From Longitalea arenae (GTDB taxonomy: Bacteria; Bacteroidota; Bacteroidia; Chitinophagales; Chitinophagaceae), in the NCBI RefSeq assembly GCF_016924755.1, contig NZ_JAFFJX010000006.1:1-64000 (forward strand): 64,000 nucleotides of DNA, given 5' to 3'. The number at the start of each line of letters is the position of its first letter. Within the stretch, counting starts at the first letter, position 1. The notes beneath the pieces are model-generated. The model saw only the letters and a list, made by a program, of their open reading frames with translations, did not search any database and was not told where the DNA came from. Of this stretch, positions 4,081-46,135 are shown in pieces. The translations under genes were made by a program, and so were the position numbers.

Positions 4081-5091
4081 ATGAAACCAAGAAATTGCAA
4101 ACTGATCATTTTGTGGATGTTGATCCCTGGTTTCACATGGGCCCAGGATCCAAGCTTTTCTCAGTTCTTTGCTTCGCCTTTAAATATCAATCCGGGACTA
4201 ACGGCCAATATTAACAGCAAATGGCGGATGGTCACCAACTTCAGGGATCAGTGGATCGGTCCGGCCAGCCCTTACACTACCGGAACCGTTTCATTTGATA
4301 GCAAGATCATGAAATACAAACTGCCTGAAACCAGTGTACTTGGGCTGGGTGGCATGCTCATGTACGACTATGCTATGTCGGGCATTCATAAAAGCGTATA
4401 TGGCTCATTGAATGTTTCATACAATATTACTTTATCAGATAATCTGGGCGATCATCGGTTGGGAATAGGAGTGGGGGGCATTGTTGCCAGCAAGCGCATT
4501 GAATTTCACCGCCTCGTTTATCCCGAACAATTCACCGGCAACGGGTTCAATACCAATTTGCCTTCCGGCGAAGCCGCCCTTACCAATATGAAACCCTATA
4601 TTTCTTCCAGCGCCGGCCTTACCTACAGTTACACCAATGATAGAAGCAACTTCGACGCAGGCATTGCGGTGTTCCATTTGAACAGGCCCCGGCAAACAGT
4701 GCTCGACGATCCCAATAAATACCTGGCTATGCGCAAGGTGGCCCACGCCAATTTCGAAACCTACCTCAATGATTATATGCTGCTCAATACCAATGGCATT
4801 TACCAGGAACAATCAAAAGCGAGTTATTTCTCCGTAGGTGGCGCTCTTGGCTTTTTCATAAATGAAACGGGCGAAGATCAGATCTTATACCTCGGCCTGT
4901 GGTACTGGTCGAAAAACGCGGTCATCCCATACGTTGGTTTACGCTATAAAAGCATGCAATTTGGATTATCCTATGATATTACTGTTTCCAAACTCAGCGA
5001 GGCGGAGCAAAAACCCAAGACATTTGAACTTTCTTTTATATTAAGAGGAGATGACAATAAAGACGGTGTTATCTGGTGCCCCTGGAAATAA
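4081..5091 (+). CDS. PorP/SprF family type IX secretion membrane protein
   Basis: The protein has 336 residues. An N-terminal signal peptide ends near TWAQ; the mature part begins DPSFSQFFASPLNINPGL, the hallmark opening of the PorP/SprF family (outer-membrane beta-barrel proteins of the T9SS). The rest alternates aromatic and polar residues as expected for a barrel. It starts 12 bases after the stop of the adhesin with the type B sorting domain, so the two are probably co-transcribed. By family knowledge, SprF-like partners help export or anchor their neighbouring type B substrate; that role is inferred here from position. Confidence 0.9.
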   Translation: MKPRNCKLIILWMLIPGFTWAQDPSFSQFFASPLNINPGLTANINSKWRMVTNFRDQWIGPASPYTTGTVSFDSKIMKYKLPETSVLGLGGMLMYDYAMSGIHKSVYGSLNVSYNITLSDNLGDHRLGIGVGGIVASKRIEFHRLVYPEQFTGNGFNTNLPSGEAALTNMKPYISSSAGLTYSYTNDRSNFDAGIAVFHLNRPRQTVLDDPNKYLAMRKVAHANFETYLNDYMLLNTNGIYQEQSKASYFSVGGALGFFINETGEDQILYLGLWYWSKNAVIPYVGLRYKSMQFGLSYDITVSKLSEAEQKPKTFELSFILRGDDNKDGVIWCPWK

Positions 5092-9919: not shown

Positions 9920-10264
9920 CTAATTGTTTTCTCCAGGTGTCAAAAGGGCCCTCACTTCTACACTGCCACCCATTTTAAGAATCGGGTTCCCCTTTGCAAG
10001 CTCAATGGCTTCATCAATAGTTGTCGTTTTTACAACAATATACCCCCTGATAAATTCCTTGATCTCCGTGAACGGCCCATCTGTAACAATATTGTCTGGC
10101 AACACCGTTTTGGCCTGTCCCATCGACAAGCGGTTCCCTTTGTCAACCAGCTTGTTTTGGGCTGCAATACCAGCCAGCCAGTTCATTCTTTCCTGCATCT
10201 GCTCTTGTGTGGGCGTGTCGGGAGCGGGATTACTGTTCCTGAAGATCAGCATAAACTCTTTCAT
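9920..10264 (-). CDS. YCII/DGPF-domain protein, partner of the ECF42 sigma factor
   Basis: The protein has 114 residues. The ATG at 10264 gives the family's usual opening MKEFMLIFRN; a longer frame to 10378 starts with a rare codon and adds non-family sequence. The motif DGPFTEIKEFIRGYIVV is the DGPF signature, followed by EAIELAKGNP and VEVRALL. DGPF proteins have a dimeric ferredoxin-like YCII fold. They almost always neighbour ECF41/ECF42 sigma genes and are probably their targets or co-regulators. It lies 5 bases upstream of the sigma gene, so the two form one transcript. Confidence 0.9.
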   Translation of the reverse strand: MKEFMLIFRNSNPAPDTPTQEQMQERMNWLAGIAAQNKLVDKGNRLSMGQAKTVLPDNIVTDGPFTEIKEFIRGYIVVKTTTIDEAIELAKGNPILKMGGSVEVRALLTPGENN

Positions 10265-29171: not shown

Positions 29172-30296
29172 TTACAGTATAAGGGTATCAGGTGCTATAT
29201 ATTGCATTCCTGTTTTTTGCTGCAATAATGATTCCAACGTGCGGGCGATCACAGCAGGCTGGGGCAGTTCAGGTTCCTGTATCATGCGGTTATTGCGCAC
29301 ATAACTGATCACTTCATTTTTACTCTGCAACCCGGCTGGTACATTCCAGGCAAAAATCCGACCCCATACCTTCCAGGGCGTATGCTGGGGATTCGTTAAC
29401 GCATACAATACGATCACCGGCGTTTGCCGGGCAGCTGCTATATGAATAGTGGATGTATTTACCGATACAATTACGGCAGCCCCATCGGCCAGGGCAATAA
29501 ACTCACCAATGCTCAGCTTTCCGGCCAGGTCGATGGCCACATCGCCGATGCCGGCGGCAATAGCGCCTGTAAGCCCGCTTTCTTTCGCTGTTCCTGTAAG
29601 CAAGATGGGTAAACCGGTATGTGCCACCAGCTTCCCCAATTTGATCCATTCCTCTACGGGATACATTCTTTTTTCTTCGCTTACCCCCGGATGAAATACC
29701 AGATACCCTTTGGTCAGATCTGCCGGCAGTGTATGCAGTTTCACCAGCATGTTCTGGTGATCCGCCTTACTCACTGTCAACAACAACCGGTCGTCGGATG
29801 TTGTAGCGCCGGTCACCGCTACCAATGCCAGGTCGCGTTTTACCTGGTGCTGAATAAAGCTGTAAGGTTCCTTATCTGGCAACCAGTGGGTGAGCAGGTC
29901 GTATGGATTTTCCCTGCTGTACGCCAGGCGCAGGGGAATACCCGCCATCATAGTTAATAATGCGGCAGGCAGCGCGCTCTGGCTGTAAACGGTGAAGATG
30001 ATGGCTGCATCAAACCGGTAGTCGCGTAAGAGCGCTACCAGTTCAAGCATCTCGGTGCCCGCAGTAGCTGCATTCGATCTTATCCAGGGCAGATCACGGA
30101 CGATCACATCATCTATGACCGGGATAAAACCCGTTATGCTTTGCGCCATGGTAGAGGTAAGCACTGTTATATGACAAAGAAAGCTTTCCTTCAATGCTCT
30201 TAAAGCAGGTGTTGTCATGATCAGGTCACCCATATTGTCGGCCCTTATGCACAGGATCTTTTTACACGTGTTCCACACTGGCTCTTGCTTTAGCAT
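29172..30296 (-). CDS. glycosyltransferase family 9 (heptosyltransferase-like)
   Basis: The protein has 374 residues from the ATG at 30296; the longer frame to 30341 runs deeper into the upstream gene. Features of GT9: ILCIRADNMGDLIMTTPALRAL at the N-terminus, VFHPGVSEEKRMYPVEEW in the middle, LAGKLSIGEFIALADGAAV and VSVNTSTIHIAAA in the C-terminal nucleotide-sugar site. GT9 enzymes transfer heptose from ADP-heptose to lipopolysaccharide core or related sugars. It overlaps the 3' end of the GmhB-like phosphatase gene by 35 bases, so translation is probably coupled. Confidence 0.87.
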   Translation of the reverse strand: MLKQEPVWNTCKKILCIRADNMGDLIMTTPALRALKESFLCHITVLTSTMAQSITGFIPVIDDVIVRDLPWIRSNAATAGTEMLELVALLRDYRFDAAIIFTVYSQSALPAALLTMMAGIPLRLAYSRENPYDLLTHWLPDKEPYSFIQHQVKRDLALVAVTGATTSDDRLLLTVSKADHQNMLVKLHTLPADLTKGYLVFHPGVSEEKRMYPVEEWIKLGKLVAHTGLPILLTGTAKESGLTGAIAAGIGDVAIDLAGKLSIGEFIALADGAAVIVSVNTSTIHIAAARQTPVIVLYALTNPQHTPWKVWGRIFAWNVPAGLQSKNEVISYVRNNRMIQEPELPQPAVIARTLESLLQQKTGMQYIAPDTLIL

Positions 30297-30846
30297 GTTC
30301 AATAATAATGGCAGCCGCATCCTTCCAGTTTTCACATACAAAGGCAGGCCGCCGGCTATCGGTCAGTACCCATTCGGTTTCATTGCCATTATTTAATAAT
30401 ATCGAAGTGCAACCAGCCCGGTTACCGGCTTCGGCATCATGTAAGATATCGCCGATCATCCACGAGCTTTCGAGATCTATATCCATTTCCATCGCCGCCT
30501 GCAATAACATGCCGGGCAATGGTTTCCGGCAATAACAGGCTTTTGCGAAGGGCGCGCGGTCACCTTCCGCATGATGCGGGCAATAATAATAACCATTTAA
30601 CCGTACGCCGTTTTCCAGTAATTTATTTTCAATGAACCGGAAAACCTGGTGTATATCTTCTTCTGTAAAATAAGAAAATGCAATACCGGGCTGGTTGGAT
30701 ATGATGATCAACTGAAAGCCAAACGCCTGCAGCAACTGCAACGCTTCAATGGCATGTTCTTCAAATTCGATCAGGCTGGTATTCACGTTATAGGGCACAT
30801 CTTTGATCAGGGTGCCGTCTTTATCAATAAACACCGCCCTGTTCAT
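30262..30846 (-). CDS. HAD-IIIA phosphatase, GmhB-like (heptose bisphosphate phosphatase family)
   Basis: The protein has 194 residues. The HAD nucleophile motif FIDKDGT (D8, D10), IIISNQPGIA, the zinc-binding set C89-P-H91 ... C104-Y-C106 followed by RKP, and WMIGDILHDAEAGNRAG are those of GmhB. GmhB removes the 7-phosphate of glycero-manno-heptose 1,7-bisphosphate on the ADP-heptose route. Histidinol-phosphate phosphatases share the fold and cannot be excluded, but the neighbouring GT9 genes favour heptose. Its start overlaps the GT4 stop by 4 bases (ATGA) on the minus strand. Confidence 0.87.
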   Translation of the reverse strand: MNRAVFIDKDGTLIKDVPYNVNTSLIEFEEHAIEALQLLQAFGFQLIIISNQPGIAFSYFTEEDIHQVFRFIENKLLENGVRLNGYYYCPHHAEGDRAPFAKACYCRKPLPGMLLQAAMEMDIDLESSWMIGDILHDAEAGNRAGCTSILLNNGNETEWVLTDSRRPAFVCENWKDAAAIIIEHAKARASVEHV

Positions 30847-32174
30847 ACTACAGAACTTTTAAAGCCAGGCAACAGGTTCAGCAGGTTCAGCAAGGTGGTG
30901 TGATCTGCTGCCCTTTGCATAACAGGCACTTTGGCCGGTTTCTGCACATCGGTCAATACCTGGTGATACACCTGGTGCATGGAAGCAGCGATCTTGTTCC
31001 AGGTAAAATAATGTCGTACGTGCTTGATGGCATTCTTACACATCGTACGATGCAGTTCCGCGTCGGTGAGCAAAAGATTGATCTTATCTGCGAGGGCGGG
31101 AGGATCATTGGGCGGCACCAGGAAACCGGTATACTCATCCACCACACTGTATTTAATGCCGCCTACATTACTTCCGATCACCGGTGTGCCGCAGGCCATC
31201 GCTTCCAGCGGTGTAATGCCAAAAGGCTCATACCACGGCGTGGAAATAAATACATCGGCAGCAGCATAATAATATTTCAACAGCGCACGGCCTTTACGTC
31301 CGGTAAATATCACCTGGTCATACACGCCGCTTTCCCTGGCCACCTGTTGCAGGCGCCCTATTTCAGGGGTTGATGCCGGATCGGGAGAATCGGCTTCACC
31401 ACCCACTACAAGTAATTTGATCCTGCTCTTTTGTTTATTCACCTCACCCAATGCCCTGATCACATTGTCCACGCCTTTTCGGGGCACCATTCTGCCCAAT
31501 TGCAGAATGATCTTTTCCTTGCGGGACAACTTCAAATGATCCCGCGCCTCTTCTTTTTCTATTGGATAGAATTCTTTCGGGTTGAAACCACAGGGCACGA
31601 TCACGATCTTATCGGGATCTGCATAATAATGATCCAGCAGATCTTCTTTATCCTGCGGGCATTCTGCCACGATCAGGTTGGCGTCGTCTATAATATGTTT
31701 TTCGATGATCGTTCTTTCCGGCGGAAATCCATCCTGTTGCTTCTGATGCAGCTGGCGCACCAGCCCCAGGGCATGAAAAGTAACAACATAGGGTATACCC
31801 GTGGTCTTTTTTATATTCGATGCTACCAGGGCCGACATAAAGAAATGAGCGTGTATCAACTCATAATACAATTCATGCCGGCTCATAAAGAACAACATCT
31901 GGAAAGTGAATTCCTGCATGTATTGTAATAACTGCTCCTTGGGAATATATTCTGCGGGGCCTGCTGTAACATGAATGATCCGTACACCGGGCTTCCATTC
32001 AACCACTTCAGGAGCAGAAGCGCTGTCCCTCCGTGTGTATATATCAATATGATATCCTTTTCGAACCAGCTGCATGCTAAGTTCAGCGACATATACATTT
32101 TGTCCGCCATTGTCAATGCCACCCAATAAAGCCAGGGGGGAAGCATGCTCGCTGATAAAGGCAATCCTTGTCAT
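30843..32174 (-). CDS. glycosyltransferase family 4 (GT-B retaining)
   Basis: The protein has 443 residues. GGIDNGGQNVYVAELSMQL at the N-terminus is the glycine-rich loop of sucrose-synthase-like GT4 enzymes; the C-terminal half has LQLGRMVPRKGVDNVIRAL and the E-x7-E motif EPFGITPLEAMACGTPVIGS. The donor and acceptor cannot be predicted. It overlaps both neighbours by 4 bases (ATGA junctions) within the leftward five-gene operon. Confidence 0.88.
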   Translation of the reverse strand: MTRIAFISEHASPLALLGGIDNGGQNVYVAELSMQLVRKGYHIDIYTRRDSASAPEVVEWKPGVRIIHVTAGPAEYIPKEQLLQYMQEFTFQMLFFMSRHELYYELIHAHFFMSALVASNIKKTTGIPYVVTFHALGLVRQLHQKQQDGFPPERTIIEKHIIDDANLIVAECPQDKEDLLDHYYADPDKIVIVPCGFNPKEFYPIEKEEARDHLKLSRKEKIILQLGRMVPRKGVDNVIRALGEVNKQKSRIKLLVVGGEADSPDPASTPEIGRLQQVARESGVYDQVIFTGRKGRALLKYYYAAADVFISTPWYEPFGITPLEAMACGTPVIGSNVGGIKYSVVDEYTGFLVPPNDPPALADKINLLLTDAELHRTMCKNAIKHVRHYFTWNKIAASMHQVYHQVLTDVQKPAKVPVMQRAADHTTLLNLLNLLPGFKSSVV

Positions 32175-33151
32175 ACCGTCACATTTTTATTGTTGATCGC
32201 AAATTGAAATACCTCGTTCCATTCCCGGGCAAAGCGCTCTATATTGAAATGTTCCAGGGCAACTTGCCGGGCACGCGCTCCCATAGTGATTGCCAGTGAC
32301 CGATCATGTAACAGTCGTTTCATGTCAGTTATCAGCGCATCAACATTGGTGTTGATGAATGCCGATTCACCATTTCTAAGCAGATTGGCATATTCAGTAG
32401 TAGCCAGCGACACAACAGGTAATCCTGCCATCATCGCTTCACATACCGAAAGCCCAAAACTGGTATGCCGTATCGGATTGAATAGAAACCGGTAACGGGT
32501 AGTGAAGGCGGTCAATTGAGGAAACAATACTTCACCCAGACCACCATATTTCTCTGTGCCCATACCTGCCAGGTCAACAGGCACTTCTGCACGTACCTGT
32601 TCATAAACATCCCAGCCGGTAATGCGGCCGCGTTCTTTAATATGATTTATGACTACGATCCCTTTTTCGAGTTCCCCATTATAATGATGTGTGGGCTCTG
32701 TTATGCCATGCTCGATCACCCTCACCTGTGGAACGTTGTTCTTCCACATTAATTTATTATAGTGGGTCACATGAACCAGCACCACCTCCTCATCTGTCAG
32801 GGGATGCGGTGAATTCACCGGATGTGGTTCCGGTGCATTGTGCTCGAGATAAACAGCCGGCAATTGACGTTGCTCCGCTGATAATACCTCGTACTGATCG
32901 ATGCGGTAATTTTTCTCCGACTGGAACAGGATGCAATCGAATTGATGTTCCTTCACTGCATCAACAGGAACTTCGATCACATTGTCGCCAAACAAAAAAG
33001 TGTTGCCCCTTCCGTAATAACCTTCATCTTTTTTGTCGTTGACGGGAATATAAATGTCAAATCCACATTGAGAAAGATAATACAAATAGCTTCCGTGAAT
33101 ATGCCAGGTGAACAGTTTAAGCCTGTCTGTTTGTCGTACAAATGAAGTCAT
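32171..33151 (-). CDS. glycosyltransferase family 4, first gene of the leftward glycan operon
   Basis: The protein has 326 residues from the ATG at 33151, chosen because RLKLFTWHIHGSYLYYLS right after it is the usual beginning of such enzymes. In-frame alternatives are ATG 33214 and TTG 33286; the extra residues look unlike the family. The C-terminal part carries HTSFGLSVCEAMMAGLPVVSL, the donor-binding GT4 motif, and NGESAFINTNVDALITDM. It is divergent from the carbamoyltransferase gene, so the ~210 bases between them probably hold promoters for both operons. Confidence 0.82.
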   Translation of the reverse strand: MTSFVRQTDRLKLFTWHIHGSYLYYLSQCGFDIYIPVNDKKDEGYYGRGNTFLFGDNVIEVPVDAVKEHQFDCILFQSEKNYRIDQYEVLSAEQRQLPAVYLEHNAPEPHPVNSPHPLTDEEVVLVHVTHYNKLMWKNNVPQVRVIEHGITEPTHHYNGELEKGIVVINHIKERGRITGWDVYEQVRAEVPVDLAGMGTEKYGGLGEVLFPQLTAFTTRYRFLFNPIRHTSFGLSVCEAMMAGLPVVSLATTEYANLLRNGESAFINTNVDALITDMKRLLHDRSLAITMGARARQVALEHFNIERFAREWNEVFQFAINNKNVTV

Positions 33152-33363
33152 AACGGTAATCTCATTTAATGTTGAACTTCTCATTATTGCATAAAAGTGA
33201 TGCCGCATGAACATGTGGAAATAGGGAAACGCTTCTCTGGTTTTCAATTTTTTATATAGCGTTATGTCCACAACTTGGCTAGACAATATGTAAAATCACA
33301 CCGGGTAAGGTATTTGATGCGTTCGCCAGATATTAACCATCATCACAAAAAATTATCGCCCAC

Positions 33364-35067: not shown

Positions 35068-36044
35068 AACCCTGGATCTCTGTTGTGATCGCCACCTGGC
35101 AGCGTACCCATTTGATACAACGCTGCCTGGAGGCCCTGGTAAAGCAAACAATGCCCGGGAACAGTTACGAGGTGATCATTGTTACCGACGGACCCGACCC
35201 CGCCACCGTTAAATTCATGAAGCAATGGCTTAGGAACTATCAGGGTAAGGTAGCCGTAACCTGTATTTCCCTGCCCGTTAAAAAAGGCCCTGCCGCAGCC
35301 CGCAATGCCGGCTGGCGCAAGGCCCTAGGCGAACTCATTGTTTTCACCGATGATGACTGTGTTCCACAACCGGAATGCCTGCACAAGTACTGGGTAGCGT
35401 ATACCCCGTACCGCGACACGGCCATTGCTTTTTCCGGCCGTATTAAAGTGCCTCTCTCGGGTTTGCCTACCGACTATGAAAAAAATACGGCGCAGCTGGA
35501 ACAGGCCCGCTTTGTAACCGCCAATTGCGCCTGCAGCCGCAAAGCCCTGGAGCTCACCGGCGGGCTCGATGAAGAATTCACCATGGCCTGGCGCGAAGAC
35601 ACGGCCCTGGAATTTGACCTCAGCGAAAAGGAGATCCCGATCATCAAAGTACCCGAAGCGGTGATCGTTCATCCGGTACGGGCAGCTTCCTGGGGCATAA
35701 GCATTAAGGAACAAAAGAAAAGTATGTTCAATGCCCTGCTGTATAAGAAACATGCATGGCTATATGAAAAAAGCAATATGGAACGGCCGCCCCGGTACTA
35801 TTATTTAATCACCTGCCTCTTACTGCTGGCATTGATCTTCGCTTTTCATAACAGCACAGGGACCATTTTTTGCATGGCAGTTTGGGTAATACTTACCGGC
35901 TGGTTTGCCTGGAAAAGACTGAAAGATACGTCCCGCAGCCTGCCGCATGTAGCCGAAATGATCTTTACCTCAGCCATTATACCGGTAGTTTCCGTTTACT
36001 GGAACCTGTATGGCGCTGTAAAATTTAAGACCTTTTTTGTATGA
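35064..36044 (+). CDS. glycosyltransferase family 2 with C-terminal membrane segments
   Basis: The protein has 326 residues. The GT-A domain shows WISVVIATWQRTHLIQRCLEAL, KKGPAAARNAGWRKA, the DxD-type metal site FTDDDCVP, and the acceptor region WREDTALEFDL. Two hydrophobic helices near the C-terminus (ITCLLLLALIFAF and IFCMAVWVILTGWFAW) would hold it in the inner membrane. It overlaps the carbamoyltransferase by 4 bases and the next gene by 4 bases, so it is translationally coupled to both. Confidence 0.88.
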   Translation: MKPWISVVIATWQRTHLIQRCLEALVKQTMPGNSYEVIIVTDGPDPATVKFMKQWLRNYQGKVAVTCISLPVKKGPAAARNAGWRKALGELIVFTDDDCVPQPECLHKYWVAYTPYRDTAIAFSGRIKVPLSGLPTDYEKNTAQLEQARFVTANCACSRKALELTGGLDEEFTMAWREDTALEFDLSEKEIPIIKVPEAVIVHPVRAASWGISIKEQKKSMFNALLYKKHAWLYEKSNMERPPRYYYLITCLLLLALIFAFHNSTGTIFCMAVWVILTGWFAWKRLKDTSRSLPHVAEMIFTSAIIPVVSVYWNLYGAVKFKTFFV

Positions 36045-37096
36045 TGACATTTACCACTGAAAAACCGAAGATCGCCCTGCTCAGGGCCCTGCAATTAGGC
36101 GATATGCTTTGCGCTGTTCCCGCATTCCGGGCTTTGCGCCAGGCTTTTCCACCGGCAGAGATCAGCCTGATTGGTCTGCCCTGGGCGGGCTCTTTTGTTC
36201 AACGGTATAACCAGTATATCGACCGGTTGATCGTATTCCCCGGTTATCCGGGCCTGCCGGAACAACCGTTCTCCCAAACAGCCTGGGATAAGTTTGTGGA
36301 ACAGATGCGGCAGGAACAATTTGATTGCATTATCCAGATGCAGGGGAATGGCACTATTGTTAACGAAATGCTGCAACAGCTGGGCGCCAGGCAGCTCGCC
36401 GGCTTTCACCGCCACGATTGCCGTATGGACCCCGAATGGTTTACAGAGTATCCCGAAACGGAACACGAGATCAACCGCCACCTGTTATTGATGCAACACC
36501 TCGGCATCCGGGATACCAATCCACAGCTGGAATTTCCCATTACTGATGAGGAAGAAGAGAGCATGCAGGAGCTGGTCCCTTTTGTACATTATGAAAAATA
36601 TGTAGTGGTGCATCCCGGTTCGCGGAGCGCTGCCCGGCAATGGCCGCCCTGCTATTTTGCAGCCATGGCCGATCACTGCGCCCAGAACGGTTACCGCGTG
36701 GTGCTCACCGGTACGGCCGATGAGAAGTATCTTACAGACTATGTGGCTGCGTTAATGCAGCATAAAGCCGTTAACCTGGCAGGAAAAACAAATCTGGGTG
36801 TCGTAGCCGCACTCATTAAAAATGCCAGCCTGCTCATCGCCAATTGCACGGGCGTTTCCCATATTGCAGCCGGCACCCGAACACCCAGTATCATTATCAG
36901 TATGGATGGCGAACCGCATCGCTGGGGACCATTGAACCGCGAACTGCATCATGTATTTGACTGGACAAGCAAAAAATCATTTACGGAAGTATATCACCAG
37001 TTGTGCCACCTGATCACTACAGAACAGAAAAAAGAGATTGGATTAACGAAACCGGTAGCCATACAATTAGGAGCAATGGGATTTGTTGCTCAGTAG
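36041..37096 (+). CDS. glycosyltransferase family 9 (heptosyltransferase-like)
   Basis: The protein has 351 residues. GT9 features are IALLRALQLGDMLCAVPAFRAL, VVHPGSRSAARQWPP, VVLTGTADEKYL, NLAGKTNLGVVAALIKNASL and NCTGVSHIAAGTRTPSI. It is the second GT9 in this region, which strengthens the case for a heptose-type glycan. The last 30 bases overlap the 3' end of the convergent response-regulator gene. Confidence 0.87.
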   Translation: MMTFTTEKPKIALLRALQLGDMLCAVPAFRALRQAFPPAEISLIGLPWAGSFVQRYNQYIDRLIVFPGYPGLPEQPFSQTAWDKFVEQMRQEQFDCIIQMQGNGTIVNEMLQQLGARQLAGFHRHDCRMDPEWFTEYPETEHEINRHLLLMQHLGIRDTNPQLEFPITDEEEESMQELVPFVHYEKYVVVHPGSRSAARQWPPCYFAAMADHCAQNGYRVVLTGTADEKYLTDYVAALMQHKAVNLAGKTNLGVVAALIKNASLLIANCTGVSHIAAGTRTPSIIISMDGEPHRWGPLNRELHHVFDWTSKKSFTEVYHQLCHLITTEQKKEIGLTKPVAIQLGAMGFVAQ

Positions 37097-37721: not shown

Positions 37722-38084
37722 TTATTTTAGGCCATCGATGAGTTTCTCAGCTGTCTGCAAGAGCTGTTGATTGGAAAAGGGTTTTTCCAAATAGGCGTCG
37801 GCCCTGGCTTCTTTTGTCAGTGCATGCAAATGCGGCGTGGCCGATAAAATGATGACAGGAATTTGTTTTGTTGATTCAGTGTCTTTCAGATGCCGGCAAA
37901 TATCCAGACCGTCTACGCCCGACAATTGTTTGTCAACAATAAACAGGTCCGGAATGTCGAACTTTTCAGTAAAAATAAAATTGCCATTTAAATAAGTAGC
38001 CGTATTGAAACCTGCACGGGTCAATAATATGCTTATGGCATCTGATATGGCAGGATCGTCTTCAATGATAATTACTTTCTTCAT
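37722..38084 (-). CDS. stand-alone CheY-like response regulator downstream of a TPP riboswitch
   Basis: The protein has 120 residues from the ATG at 38084 (MKKVIIIEDD). The frame stays open upstream to 38387, but that part runs through the TPP aptamer and is unlike protein. Receiver features: IIEDDPAIS acidic pair, D51 (LFIVDKQLSGVDG), VIILSAT and the Lys in YLEKPFS. No output domain is present. A TPP riboswitch and terminator lie 200-365 bases upstream on the same strand, the only regulatory structure visible before this gene. Confidence 0.9.
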   Translation of the reverse strand: MKKVIIIEDDPAISDAISILLTRAGFNTATYLNGNFIFTEKFDIPDLFIVDKQLSGVDGLDICRHLKDTESTKQIPVIILSATPHLHALTKEARADAYLEKPFSNQQLLQTAEKLIDGLK

Positions 38085-38288
38085 GAGTATGTACAGTATG
38101 CTGATGCTGGTGAGCGTGCGCGTTCTGCTTTTTGTTATATCAGCTGCAATAAACAAGCCCCGGACCATACCGGTTTGCTGCACCAGCATGGCTTGCAGGA
38201 GCACCCGACGTAAATCAGCGAATTGATGAAGGTTTTGCAGAAGATTATTGCAAAAAGAAAGATTTAACGACCTGTGGCTGTTGAACAC

Positions 38289-38317
38289 AAAAAAAAGACT
38301 CCGGATGTACCGGAGTC
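38289..38317 (-). terminator. intrinsic terminator directly after the TPP aptamer
   Basis: On the minus strand the 8-bp stem GACTCCGG / CCGGAGTC is followed by eight Ts (the A run 38289-38296 on plus). It begins 6 bases after the last pair of aptamer helix P1, the usual place for an expression platform. Confidence 0.9.
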
Positions 38318-38323
38318 CCCATG

Positions 38324-38449
38324 TATTCTTCAGTCCCTTCGCTGGCATTATCCAGATCAGGTCGTCGGGGTATACTCTCAGGTTCAATTTTCATGAGTAG
38401 GTTCCTCACGGATTCTTCTCATCTTATTTAACCACCCCCTTGAAGAATA
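38324..38449 (-). ncRNA. TPP (thiamine pyrophosphate) riboswitch aptamer
   Basis: Read on the minus strand, the region has the THI-box core: CTGAGAG, then ACCTGATCTGGATAA, TGCCAGCGAAGGGA. Helix P1 closes it with 9 complementary bases at each end (plus 38441-38449 and 38324-38332). A P3 arm insertion with ATGAG/CTCAT pairing is present. The only gene downstream on this strand is a response regulator, not a thiamine gene. Confidence 0.93.
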
Positions 38450-38857
38450 TCTGACTTATAGCTAAAAAATACGTGCCACCAGTTGCACGTTTAGGCGGCA
38501 ACAGGCCCACACACATATTGAGGAATATTGTCGGCACCGTTCACCACAATAAAAAAAATGGGGTTTATTTTTTTAAATCAGTGCATAATAAATAGCTTTA
38601 TTGCAGAACGGTACCCTGTCTCCAGCTCACCGCTTATTTATACACTTCTGCAACAGGTGTGTTCTGTTAATTAATTACAGTTTAAATATCGATGTCAGGC
38701 ACCGATAATTTTCATGTATAACGTGAAGTAATAAGCGTTTTTGTTCCCGCACCGCATAAACCGTCGATCAGTGTTTACAACAATAAAGCAATCAATACAG
38801 TGAGCATTAAAATTGCAGTATATGGTTCACATTTTCTAACGATTAAACACTTTAATT
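38450..38857. other. AT-rich spacer before the KGG protein
   Basis: No gene or clear RNA is seen. TAAAATTG at 38808-38815 is a 7/8 match to the TAnnTTTG promoter word, 42 bases before the KGG protein start; no good -33 element is visible. Confidence 0.4.
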
Positions 38858-40006
38858 ATGACTAGAAGAGATCGCCAGGGCAGCCAGGGTTCCGGCCGCC
38901 AAAACGAAAGAAACCGTGGCCGTTACGGTTCACAGGGGCGTAATGAAGGCTATGGACAGCAAGGTGGTTATGGGGGAATGCAGGGTGGTTATGGACAGGA
39001 GGAGTATGGACAACAGAGAGGCTATGGTGGCATGCAGGGTGGCTATGGTCAGCAGGGTGGTAACAGAGGACAACAGGGAGGTTTCGGTGGATCAGGTGGA
39101 TATGGACGGGGTGGATATAGAGAACAGCAAGGTGGTTCCGGTGGATACGGACAACAAGGATATGGCAATCAGGGCGGCTATGGCCAGCAAGGCGGCTGGG
39201 GCGGACATCAGGGTGGTTATGGACAGCAAGGCGGCTATGGCCAGCAAGGCGGCTGGGGTGGTCAGCAGGGTGGCTGGGGAGAACAGCAAGGTGGTTATGG
39301 CAGCATGCAGGGCGGCTTCGGCGGGTATGGCCAGCAAAGTGGCTATGGCCGGCAGGGCGGCATGGGCATGGGCCAGGGATATGAAGGCGGATACGATGAG
39401 GATTATGATGAAGATGAAAACCAGTCACGTATGCAGGGCCGCTACAGGGGTCAGGAAGAAGAATATGATGAAGATTATGACGATGATGACGATTATGGCA
39501 TGCAGGGCCAGTATGGTGGCGGAGAAGAGGAAGATGATGAATGGTATATCGAAGAAGATGAAGAAGACGAAGATGAATACGGCGGTGGCCAGCAGCACCA
39601 GATGCAGGGCCGTTCGCGCCAGGGATTCGGCAGCCAGCAGGGCCGTATGGGCGGCATGCGTGGCCAGCAGGGAGAAGAGTATGATTATGATGAGGAAGAA
39701 GGTGGCAGATCTTCCTTCGGCGGCCGCTCATCACAGCAGGGTCAGCAGGGACGTGGTAACCGTTCTTCATCATCATCCGGCCGTTCCGGCAGCAGTGGCA
39801 CTTCCCGCCGTGGATTTGCCAGCATGCCAAAAGACGAAGTACGCCGCATAGCCCGTATGGGCGGAGAAGCCCGCAATCAGGGCAGTTCTTCCGGCAACAG
39901 AAGCCGCTCCGGCTCCAGCAGCAACCGCTCAAAACAAAGCGGATCCAGCGGCCGTAAAAGCCGCTCAGGTTCCAGCAGCAACCGCAGCAGAAGCAGTTCC
40001 AGGTAA
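38858..40006 (+). CDS. long prion-like Gly/Gln-rich protein with a KGG stress motif (YciG-related)
   Basis: The protein has 382 residues of low complexity in four zones. Residues ~30-175 are repeats of GYGQQGG, MQGGYG and GGWGGQQ. Residues ~178-241 are highly acidic (DEDYDEDE, EEEDDEWYIEEDEEDEDE). Residues 319-338 hold a single KGG-type motif (GFASMPKDEVRRIARMGGEA), related to YciG/GsiB stress repeats. The tail 341-382 is Arg/Ser-rich (SRSGSSSNRS). Classical YciG is about 60 residues, so this is a greatly extended form. The DUF892 gene ~100 bases downstream repeats the E. coli yciG-yciF arrangement. Composition resembles eukaryotic phase-separating proteins; that behaviour is inference. Confidence 0.85.
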   Translation: MTRRDRQGSQGSGRQNERNRGRYGSQGRNEGYGQQGGYGGMQGGYGQEEYGQQRGYGGMQGGYGQQGGNRGQQGGFGGSGGYGRGGYREQQGGSGGYGQQGYGNQGGYGQQGGWGGHQGGYGQQGGYGQQGGWGGQQGGWGEQQGGYGSMQGGFGGYGQQSGYGRQGGMGMGQGYEGGYDEDYDEDENQSRMQGRYRGQEEEYDEDYDDDDDYGMQGQYGGGEEEDDEWYIEEDEEDEDEYGGGQQHQMQGRSRQGFGSQQGRMGGMRGQQGEEYDYDEEEGGRSSFGGRSSQQGQQGRGNRSSSSSGRSGSSGTSRRGFASMPKDEVRRIARMGGEARNQGSSSGNRSRSGSSSNRSKQSGSSGRKSRSGSSSNRSRSSSR

Positions 40007-40104: not shown

Positions 40105-40734
40105 ATGGCCACGGCTACAGAAACAGGCAAACATAAAAACGGGCACTTGCCCGAAACAACTGAAAGCAAGAAAAAAGGCGGGATGCAGCAAGGGGCCGAT
40201 GAATCACCATCTTACCTGCAAAGATTTTTTATCGACCAGGTAAAAGATATGTATTATGCCGAGCAGGAACTATTGAAGGCAATGCCTGAAATAAAAAATG
40301 CCGCCACTACCGAAGAACTGGAAGATGCCATAGAAGATCATATGCGACAAACACAAAGGCATGTGAAACGGCTTGAAAAGATCTTCCACATGATCGGACA
40401 AAAACCGGAGGGGAAAAGATGTGAAGCCATGGATGGCCTCATCAAAGAGTGTAAAACCATTATCCGCGAAACCGAAGAAAATACCATGACCCGCGATGCC
40501 GCATTGATCATCGCCGCCCAGAAAATAGAGCACTATGAGATCGCTTCCTATGGCGGACTGGTAGCGCTGGCATTGACCATGGGAATGGAAAGAGCTGCAG
40601 ACATTCTGGATAAAACACTCGCAGAAGAAGAAATGAACGATCAGTTGTTAACAGATATAGCCGAAACCTATATCAATGTAGAAGCAGAGCACGAAGGTGC
40701 TTACAACTGGGATAAAAAAATATGGGTAGTTTAG
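40105..40734 (+). CDS. DUF892 ferritin-like protein (YciF/YciE family)
   Basis: The protein has 209 residues. A ~35-residue polar N-terminus precedes a four-helix bundle with FIDQVKDMYYAEQELLKAMP, HMRQTQRHVKRLEKIFHMIG, AQKIEHYEIASYGGL and LAEEEMNDQLLTDIAE. The Glu/His residues in these helices match the di-iron site of the family. YciF-type proteins are stress-induced and co-encoded with KGG proteins in enterobacteria, the same arrangement seen here. The biochemical activity is not established. Confidence 0.9.
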   Translation: MATATETGKHKNGHLPETTESKKKGGMQQGADESPSYLQRFFIDQVKDMYYAEQELLKAMPEIKNAATTEELEDAIEDHMRQTQRHVKRLEKIFHMIGQKPEGKRCEAMDGLIKECKTIIRETEENTMTRDAALIIAAQKIEHYEIASYGGLVALALTMGMERAADILDKTLAEEEMNDQLLTDIAETYINVEAEHEGAYNWDKKIWVV

Positions 40735-43825: not shown

Positions 43826-43980
43826 AAATTGTCAATGTGCTGATCCCGCAAAGCGGGACAAGTTGTGCTGATTTGCTAATGTGCTAATTAATACAGTTGT
43901 AATTAATTGCATTGAATAGTCGTGAATGGTCAATGGTGAATGGTCAATACTGAACAACGATTCCATCATTGCACCTCTAA
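43826..43980. repeat. octamer words and small palindrome upstream of the monooxygenase gene
   Basis: Contains TGTGCTGA, TTTGCTAA and TGTGCTAA words (about 43836-43893) around a perfect hairpin TCCCGC-AAA-GCGGGA (43844-43858), then loosely repeated GAATGGTCAAT words (43921-43950). The same octamers recur at 63204-63340. Confidence 0.7.
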
Positions 43981-44106
43981 CCGGCAACCGGTAACCGGCA
44001 ACTGGTAACCGGCAACCGGCAACTGGTAACCGGTAACCGGCAACTGGTAACTGGCAACCGGCAACTGGTAACCGGTAACCGGCAACTGGTAACTGGCAAC
44101 CGGCAA
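43981..44106 (+). repeat. 18 copies of heptamer CYGGYAA
   Basis: Eighteen uninterrupted 7-bp units, each CCGGCAA, CCGGTAA, CTGGTAA or CTGGCAA, with variation confined to two C/T positions. It sits between the divergent monooxygenase and fucosidase genes, 90 bases before the fucosidase ATG. A degenerate array of the same heptamer is at 60064-60208. Confidence 0.95.
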
Positions 44107-44196
44107 CTCCTGAATAACCAAATGTATGTCAAAAAAGTTCATATCAGGTTTACTATACTGTAGGGAAGTGACAGTAAAACAACTTATTTTCACCGC

Positions 44197-45727: not shown

Positions 45728-46135
45728 ATGCCGGCCTTAGCTATTGAGCGTTCAGCGTTTGCAGGGAGCATTGAGCGTTTTGCGTTCCGCGGTGTACGTT
45801 CACGGTGCGCGTCTCCGTTAAGCGTTTCGTTTTTGCCATTTGTTAAGCGTAGCCCGTTCTGCCTTAAGCGTTTTGTTCTTGCCTTTTGCATATTGCCTTT
45901 TGCCTATTGCCTGTTTGCCTATTGCCTTTTTGCCTATTGCCTATTGCCTTTTGCCTTTTGCTTTTTGCCTGTTTGCCTTTTTGCCCATTGCCCATTGCCT
46001 ATTGCCATTGCCTGTTGCCTATTGCCTATTGCCTGTTTGCCTTTTTGCCCATTGCCCATTGCCCATTGCCTATTGCCATTGCCTGTTGCCTATTGCTTAT
46101 TGCCTGTTTGCCTTTTTGCCTATTGCCTTTTGCCT
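45728..46135 (-). repeat. long degenerate heptamer array abutting the 3' end of the unknown gene
   Basis: From 45728 to about 45880, words of the type TTNNGCG/AAGCGTT recur. From about 45886 to 46135, 7-8-bp words read on the minus strand as NRGGCAA (AAGGCAA, TAGGCAA, CAGGCAA, TGGGCAA). Longer units are repeated in tandem: blocks starting at 45967, 46031 and 46102 are 64 and 71 bp apart, differing by one 7-bp word. The array ends 3 bases from the stop codon at 46139. Confidence 0.92.

Follow-up and report, generated by a model that had tools for sequence, protein, structure and literature searches.

An RNA element of Longitalea arenae in which a TPP aptamer is fused to an intrinsic terminator is probably (at a rough probability of 0.7) a stand-alone small RNA that would be made from its own stress-type promoter and act away from its locus. 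Sequence comparison shows the arrangement, its conservation, the covariation of its helices and its association with an upstream box, and also that the Chitinophagaceae, a family of soil bacteria, have no common gene conserved behind it.

Aptamer and terminator in the window

The window is the whole stretch of 64,000 nucleotides that was analysed. The element lies on its minus strand, with the following features in and around it:

38317 to 38449, minus strand: complete TPP (THI-box) aptamer with a lengthened P3 (RF00059, 57.3 bits)
38289 to 38320, minus strand: intrinsic terminator and its T tract, immediately behind P1 (folding and GGACTCCGGTANANCCGGAGTCTTTTT)
38463 to 38478, minus strand: promoter-like box TGGCACGTATTTTTTA, 29 nt upstream of the aptamer (found at 57 of 67 terminator-bearing loci against 0 of 42 others, see below)
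38514 to 38529, minus strand: imperfect palindrome AATATTCCTCAATATG (sequence, and alignment by eye)
37722 to 38084, minus strand: single-domain response regulator (PF00072, 9.5e-17), a neighbour but no conserved partner
38858 to 40006, plus strand: divergent KGG-motif gene (PF10685, 3e-7), the conserved neighbour in the genus
40105 to 40734, plus strand: DUF892 (YciF-like) gene of the same neighbourhood (PF05974, 4e-50)

The sequence-only reading had proposed a complete THI-box aptamer with a terminator immediately behind it, and both were confirmed. The RF00059 search that it suggested aligned the locus to model positions 1-105 with a modest score that is above the gathering score of 54.3 bits (E 1.4e-8), and this was the only Rfam match over threshold in the window. 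The core with CUGAGA, the 3' half with P4/P5 and the helices P2-P5 are present; P3 carries a 40-nt stretch that is additional to the consensus in the RF00059 alignment, and a 9-bp P1 closes the aptamer in the predicted fold. A few bases past P1 follows the terminator stem (38320-38294) with eight T, the tract reaching 38289. The 46 nt around the terminator fold at -18.4 kcal/mol (z -3.99) and the aptamer with the terminator at -55.9 kcal/mol (z -3.30), and in both cases none of 200 shuffles was equally good. A coding reading of short ORFs across the aptamer and the terminator (e.g. window 37725-38348) was rejected, the frame being seemingly unconserved by eye. About 35 nt upstream of the box, the palindrome is kept in a similar form in the genus, with a degenerate left arm in three genomes (G005, G008, G009), and is a possible candidate for a regulator or activator site.

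The next gene on the minus strand is a single-domain response regulator, as had been read, and its start lies 210 nt beyond the terminator stem. Of the 47 window ORFs that are 110 aa or longer and do not overlap, 44 (all except 30265-30846, 32174-33271 and 36041-37093) were scanned with Pfam, mostly at an E cut-off of 1e-5. No thiamine family was found among the 44, some of which had no match at all, in agreement with the claim that the window holds no thi gene. At window positions 43979-44108 and 45879-46135, tandem arrays whose basic unit is 7 bases long (AACCGGC and TTGCCTA, respectively) were read as repetitive ORFs.

The genome (7.28 Mb in 40 contigs) has three TPP aptamers. The two stronger ones lie elsewhere and precede thiS and a TonB-dependent receptor, and terminator scans at these two loci found none; the third, odd one is the element in the window.

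Conservation within the genus

Ten genomes of Niastella and Longitalea, both placed in the Chitinophagaceae by the NCBI taxonomy, were compared, including the genome of the window. Each has three TPP matches and in all ten the third is this element, with 54.3 bits reached in six and scores of 44.8-53.1 in the remaining four. All ten genomes retain the core, the terminator and the upstream box, and GGACTCCGGTANANCCGGAGTCTTTTT in the terminator occurs once per genome without a mismatch. The mean pairwise identity was 0.935 for the P4-P5 region and 0.934 for the terminator hairpin, whereas other parts have drifted (P1 5' arm 0.58, P1 3' arm with linker 0.44, distal P3 0.48). Folding alone would suffice for termination; that the hairpin is as well conserved in sequence as the binding core suggests a sequence-specific role for it.

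The receiver gene is found directly downstream in the window genome and in G007 only, which argues against the earlier suggestion that the riboswitch controls it. In the other eight genomes the position is taken by a CheB/CheR/histidine-kinase hybrid (G002, G003), by other genes (G001, G006, G009) or by a glycosyltransferase gene in convergent orientation that extends to the T tract (G004, G005, G008). The search for a thi gene between terminator and regulator, proposed with the sequence-only reading, found none in the ten genomes. On the other side of the element, an ORF recognisably related to the divergent KGG gene was seen in nine of the ten genomes; in the tenth, G006, an overlapping ORF was retained by the ORF selection in place of the KGG-type ORF. 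The KGG domain itself was tested in the window and in G009.

Spread in the family Chitinophagaceae

A covariance model of aptamer and terminator, R1, was searched over 394 genomes of the family. The position of the box is outside this model. The 71 best matches outside the genus comprise G011, 61 classed loci and nine lower-ranked matches that were examined separately. Altogether 109 TPP loci were classed, taken from the genus, the additional TPP matches of the genus, the family R1 matches and 31 loci of the best RF00059 matches. With a folding energy of -12 kcal/mol or below as the definition of a terminator, and two loci assigned by hand, 67 loci have a terminator and 42 do not. The box [CT]GGCA[CT] was found 20-42 nt upstream in 57 of the 67 terminator-bearing loci and in none of the 42 others (Fisher 5.6e-21, a nominal value because the members are related). 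Neither terminator nor box was present in the nine lower-ranked matches (0/9), and 30 of the 31 best RF00059 loci had no terminator and no strict box, the 31st, L044, having a terminator.

The strict members amount to 57 elements in at least 54 genomes and 28 genera. Six further genomes that were outside model building were recovered with a second model, R2; by eye both features are present in all six, and their genera were already represented. In G647 the box lies 46 nt upstream. Among the family matches below the best 71 outside the genus, G156, G356 and G090 were examined, and G356 also has terminator and box. The Rfam gathering score was passed by 14 of the 20 tested loci outside the genus. 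Beyond the family, a thiS-like gene follows the order-level match in G439, as judged by eye, and the box was found in 0 of the 19 examined among 41 phylum matches, which include the window's own and that of G061 from the family; weak or divergent members outside the family may have escaped these searches.

Ten of the 67 terminator-bearing loci have no strict box (G137, G330, G400, G362, G135, G160, G255, G292, G083 and L044). Near-boxes were seen by eye in G135, G160, G255 and G292 and none in G083. The copy in G362 (L141) is decayed, with the 5' half of the aptamer gone and the 3' half and the terminator remaining. L044 is a different locus, preceded by the housekeeping-type TAAATTTG and followed by a methyltransferase-like gene. 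In G137, G330 and G400, which belong to one genus (L117, L144, L146), aptamer and terminator start 6-25 nt past the stop codon of a same-strand gene, and by sequence a second copy in G645 (L269), also without a strict box, is placed likewise. In these four genomes of one genus the aptamer apparently sits in the 3' UTR of a same-strand gene. The upstream gene in G400 encodes a DUF4142 protein and has a box 38 nt before its start, so the aptamer may there form the 3' terminus of an mRNA driven by that box.

Some genomes have more than one copy. In G242 (L104) two copies are found 5 kb apart, at 4810-4935 and 9965-10089. G070 has copies in L129, L139 and L140; the L139 copy, with a weak terminator (-5.8 kcal/mol) and a near-box, is perhaps decaying.

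The promoter-like box

The logo of the 57 boxes reads mostly T (or C), then GGCA, C or T, two free positions and a T/A-rich stretch, with TT at +11/+12 (96% and 93%) and A at +15 (65%). When the pattern [CT]GGCA[CT]NN[AT]3TT was searched outside the elements, 16 matches were found upstream of genes and 23 in coding DNA (0.161 vs 0.015 per kb), three of the 16 belonging to orthologous glycosyltransferase genes. Three control patterns gave 2, 0 and 1 upstream matches (at most 0.02 per kb) and 0.004-0.005 per kb in coding DNA; within genes, too, the box exceeds the controls about threefold. The genes behind the box that were confirmed by Pfam encode DUF892 (L057, L114), MscS (L122, L126), pyrophosphatase (L134), Ku (L138), a short-chain dehydrogenase (L123) and DUF4142 (L146). 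A related pattern occurs 30 times in the window's own genome, its reversal 14 times; 27 of the 30 sites lie outside ORFs of at least 120 aa, and among the genes behind the sites are those for a receiver, a PAS kinase, TerB, DUF3606, DUF3175 and a TPP-enzyme. The site before the TPP-enzyme-domain gene (L191) sits 200 nt from the start codon and is a lead only.

In sequence the box is similar to the -24 half of sigma-54 promoters but has no GC at -12. The sigma-54 consensus is TGGCAC-N5-7-TTGCT with GG at -24 and GC at -12 (PMC12316311). A classical sigma-54 promoter is not supported, as GG and TT fit but the logo has no conserved GC, and TGGCAYN5TTGCW is not enriched in the own genome (4 sites vs 14 for the control). 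The genome has two rpoN (sigma-54) genes (L209 and L210, on contigs C6 and C38 of G000), and one of their products might read the GC-less TGGCAY-N5-TT box. Many canonical TPP loci have TAnnTTTG upstream in place of the box, which we take to be the housekeeping promoter type of the Bacteroidetes.

Genes downstream across the family

The orientation of the next gene was counted for 65 elements, the decayed copy of G362 being left out. Within 300 nt it lies on the same strand in 34 and on the opposite strand in 24, and in 7 it is farther away; outside the genus the numbers are 28, 21 and 6 of 55. The same-strand excess of 34 vs 24 is mild and not significant (binomial p about 0.24). Pfam detected no thiamine family among the 34 same-strand genes, 6 of which had no Pfam match at all. 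By these scans of the 34 genes and of 44 of the 47 window ORFs, the element does not lie in the leader of a gene for thiamine synthesis, transport or salvage.

Some same-strand genes recur within genera, namely DUF892 (G011, G133, G255, G328), DUF6766 (G383, G403), DUF763 (G070, G160) and DUF72 (G292, G324). Some of the recurring genes start within 30 nt of the terminator, and cis control is possible there. The downstream genes of G011 (DUF892) and G083 (MscS) each have a separate box immediately past the terminator. Among the other neighbours are genes for a universal stress protein, for Ku and topoisomerase IB, and for erythromycin esterase, pyrophosphatase and PEP-utilising enzymes. A Pfam tally of the flanks covered 108 of 129 proteins and listed 25 of 100 families. 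We take these neighbours to be stress-type genes, in part by their Pfam names (KGG, Usp).

Structure of the RNA and antiterminator potential

In an RNAalifold consensus of 49 diverse members, 25 pairs are predicted, of which 21 show changes on both sides that preserve the pairing, the terminator stem included. Two rows of alignment A2 (L132 and L140) are cut short in the terminator because of T runs inside the hairpins. The sequences of P1 vary widely, and at least seven uninterrupted pairs are formed in 56 of 65 elements, a helix count that supports P1 only moderately because 42% of shuffled 3' sides also reach seven. Measured from the first base of the aptamer through the T tract, the elements are 115-166 nt long with a median of 129, the window element having about 160 nt. 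With a strict finder, CTCCGGT was detected in 17 of 40 element terminators, up to 10 of the 17 coming from the one genus; the 72 other terminators at these loci all lack it. No conserved unpaired seed for pairing was recognised.

The potential for an antiterminator was estimated from upstream pairing of the 5' arm of the terminator at the point where the 3' arm is not yet made. The median gain was 1.8 kcal/mol (n = 63), and 2.3 kcal/mol in the window with the aptamer left intact. For cis-type controls of the Flavobacteria type (n = 11, drawn from 19 phylum loci and including two with weak hairpins) the median gain was 5.0 kcal/mol vs 1.8 kcal/mol (p 6e-4), and the two classes overlap. In loci of this type (L241, L244, L245, L248, L251-L253 and L256) a terminator of the GCCG type is followed, after about 10-25 nt, by a long ORF resembling a TonB receptor. 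They are probably true transcription-attenuating TPP switches of the phylum.

Proposed function and alternatives

For the stand-alone small RNA we propose that the (C)TGGCAY-N5-TT box, common to stress-type genes (DUF892/YciF, MscS, pyrophosphatase, Ku), would act as a stress-induced promoter and drive a short RNA of about 115-166 nt, which would start near P1 and end by default at the terminator. The neighbouring gene would as a rule be outside its control, and the finished RNA, free or with TPP bound, would act in trans, away from its own locus. As for the marks of a small RNA, a terminator is present and a promoter-like box is associated with the element, the promoter itself being putative. 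Because the binding core has been conserved, binding of TPP is presumably important to the free RNA. We give roughly even odds to the finished RNA being a TPP-gated trans-acting regulator, by pairing to mRNAs or by binding a protein, and this is the most likely role, a TPP sink being less likely. For the broader proposal the odds are slightly better than even: the Chitinophagaceae would have made the TPP aptamer an independent small RNA of a stress regulon, a TPP-gated trans regulator or a TPP buffer that links the coenzyme status to the general stress response, with no conserved cis gene in 28 genera. Among the possibilities raised by the sequence-only reading, a role of the terminated RNA itself is thus the one favoured by the comparison, with the transcript still a prediction from the DNA.

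A sink would consist of abundant terminated RNA that binds free TPP under stress and thereby derepresses the canonical TPP riboswitches (thiS, TonB receptor), or that stores TPP. It would require nothing beyond aptamer and terminator, which are the only conserved parts; the two canonical loci are kept in the genome, and some genomes have two or more copies. The RNA would, however, have to reach copy numbers near those of free TPP, and the near-invariant terminator sequence in the genus would be left unexplained, and we regard a sink as unlikely. The other suggestion of the sequence-only reading, a chance survival from a thi operon that was lost, agrees with the absence of a thiamine gene nearby and with the one decayed copy in G362. 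It is largely contradicted by conservation and we consider it barely tenable: all ten genus genomes keep the element, its box included, with core and terminator 93-94% identical and with the thiS and TonB-receptor riboswitches in place elsewhere, compensated changes are seen in the 49 diverse members, and the upstream box is unlike that of canonical loci.

In an ordinary cis riboswitch, TPP would favour the terminator and silence the downstream gene, here the receiver. The changing identity of this gene within the genus, where it is convergent in 3 of 10 genomes, speaks against it, as do the opposite orientation of 24 of the 58 genes within 300 nt, the count of 0 thiamine families in the 34 same-strand genes, the weak antiterminator potential and the bare state of the best RF00059 loci (L044 apart). 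These points outweigh for us that aptamer, terminator and same-strand gene form the classical layout, that the Flavobacteria-type loci retrieved with the same model have their terminator close before a TonB-receptor-like gene, and that 34 of 65 elements have a same-strand gene within 300 nt which is conserved within a few genera; cis control as the general explanation is quite improbable.

A real stand-alone small RNA of this kind would show that metabolite aptamers can work as free small RNAs. Genomes with single and multiple copies would offer a simple system to ask whether aptamer RNAs are coenzyme-gated regulators or coenzyme sinks. The element also exposes a promoter-like motif of the Chitinophagaceae that is common to stress-type genes, and in annotation such loci should not automatically be read as the leader of the next gene.

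Comparison with known systems

Riboswitches are understood through the gene that they control in cis. In the literature searched by title and abstract opening, with subscription papers mostly outside the search, no description of a stand-alone TPP aptamer RNA was found. The element has the aptamer structure and the conserved core of the TPP riboswitch (RF00059) but differs from it in having no thiamine gene or conserved controlled gene, a terminator directly after P1 and another upstream box. A riboswitch-containing sRNA named EutX was reportedly described in DebRoy 2014, and one survey of riboswitches is presumably by Barrick and Breaker. The survey sorts mechanisms by the terminator and the downstream start codon (PMC2258182). 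The thiS motif or HMP-PP riboswitch is, by the titles and excerpts of its reports, associated with thiS and has a terminator-embedded aptamer (PMC6478431, PMC6429828); it too is an RNA of the thiamine pathway, but a different one, as the element matches RF00059.

Judging from the excerpted text of the source, the SAM riboswitches SreA and SreB of Listeria act in trans on prfA, and SreA controls its own downstream operon in cis as well (PMC8079631). They resemble the element as terminated riboswitch RNAs that act as trans-acting small RNAs, whereas SreA has a cis operon and the element no conserved cis gene or known target. Rli55, according to the same excerpt, carries ANTAR elements to which EutV binds, and its aptamer determines how long the RNA becomes (PMC8079631). 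As far as these accounts go, Rli55 and the sRNA of DebRoy carry a second module (ANTAR elements, EutV), whereas in the element only a terminator follows the aptamer and the adjoining receiver is no conserved partner; what they share with it is an aptamer that resides in a small RNA and not in an mRNA leader. Within the sources as excerpted, SreA and Rli55 are the nearest precedents of the element.
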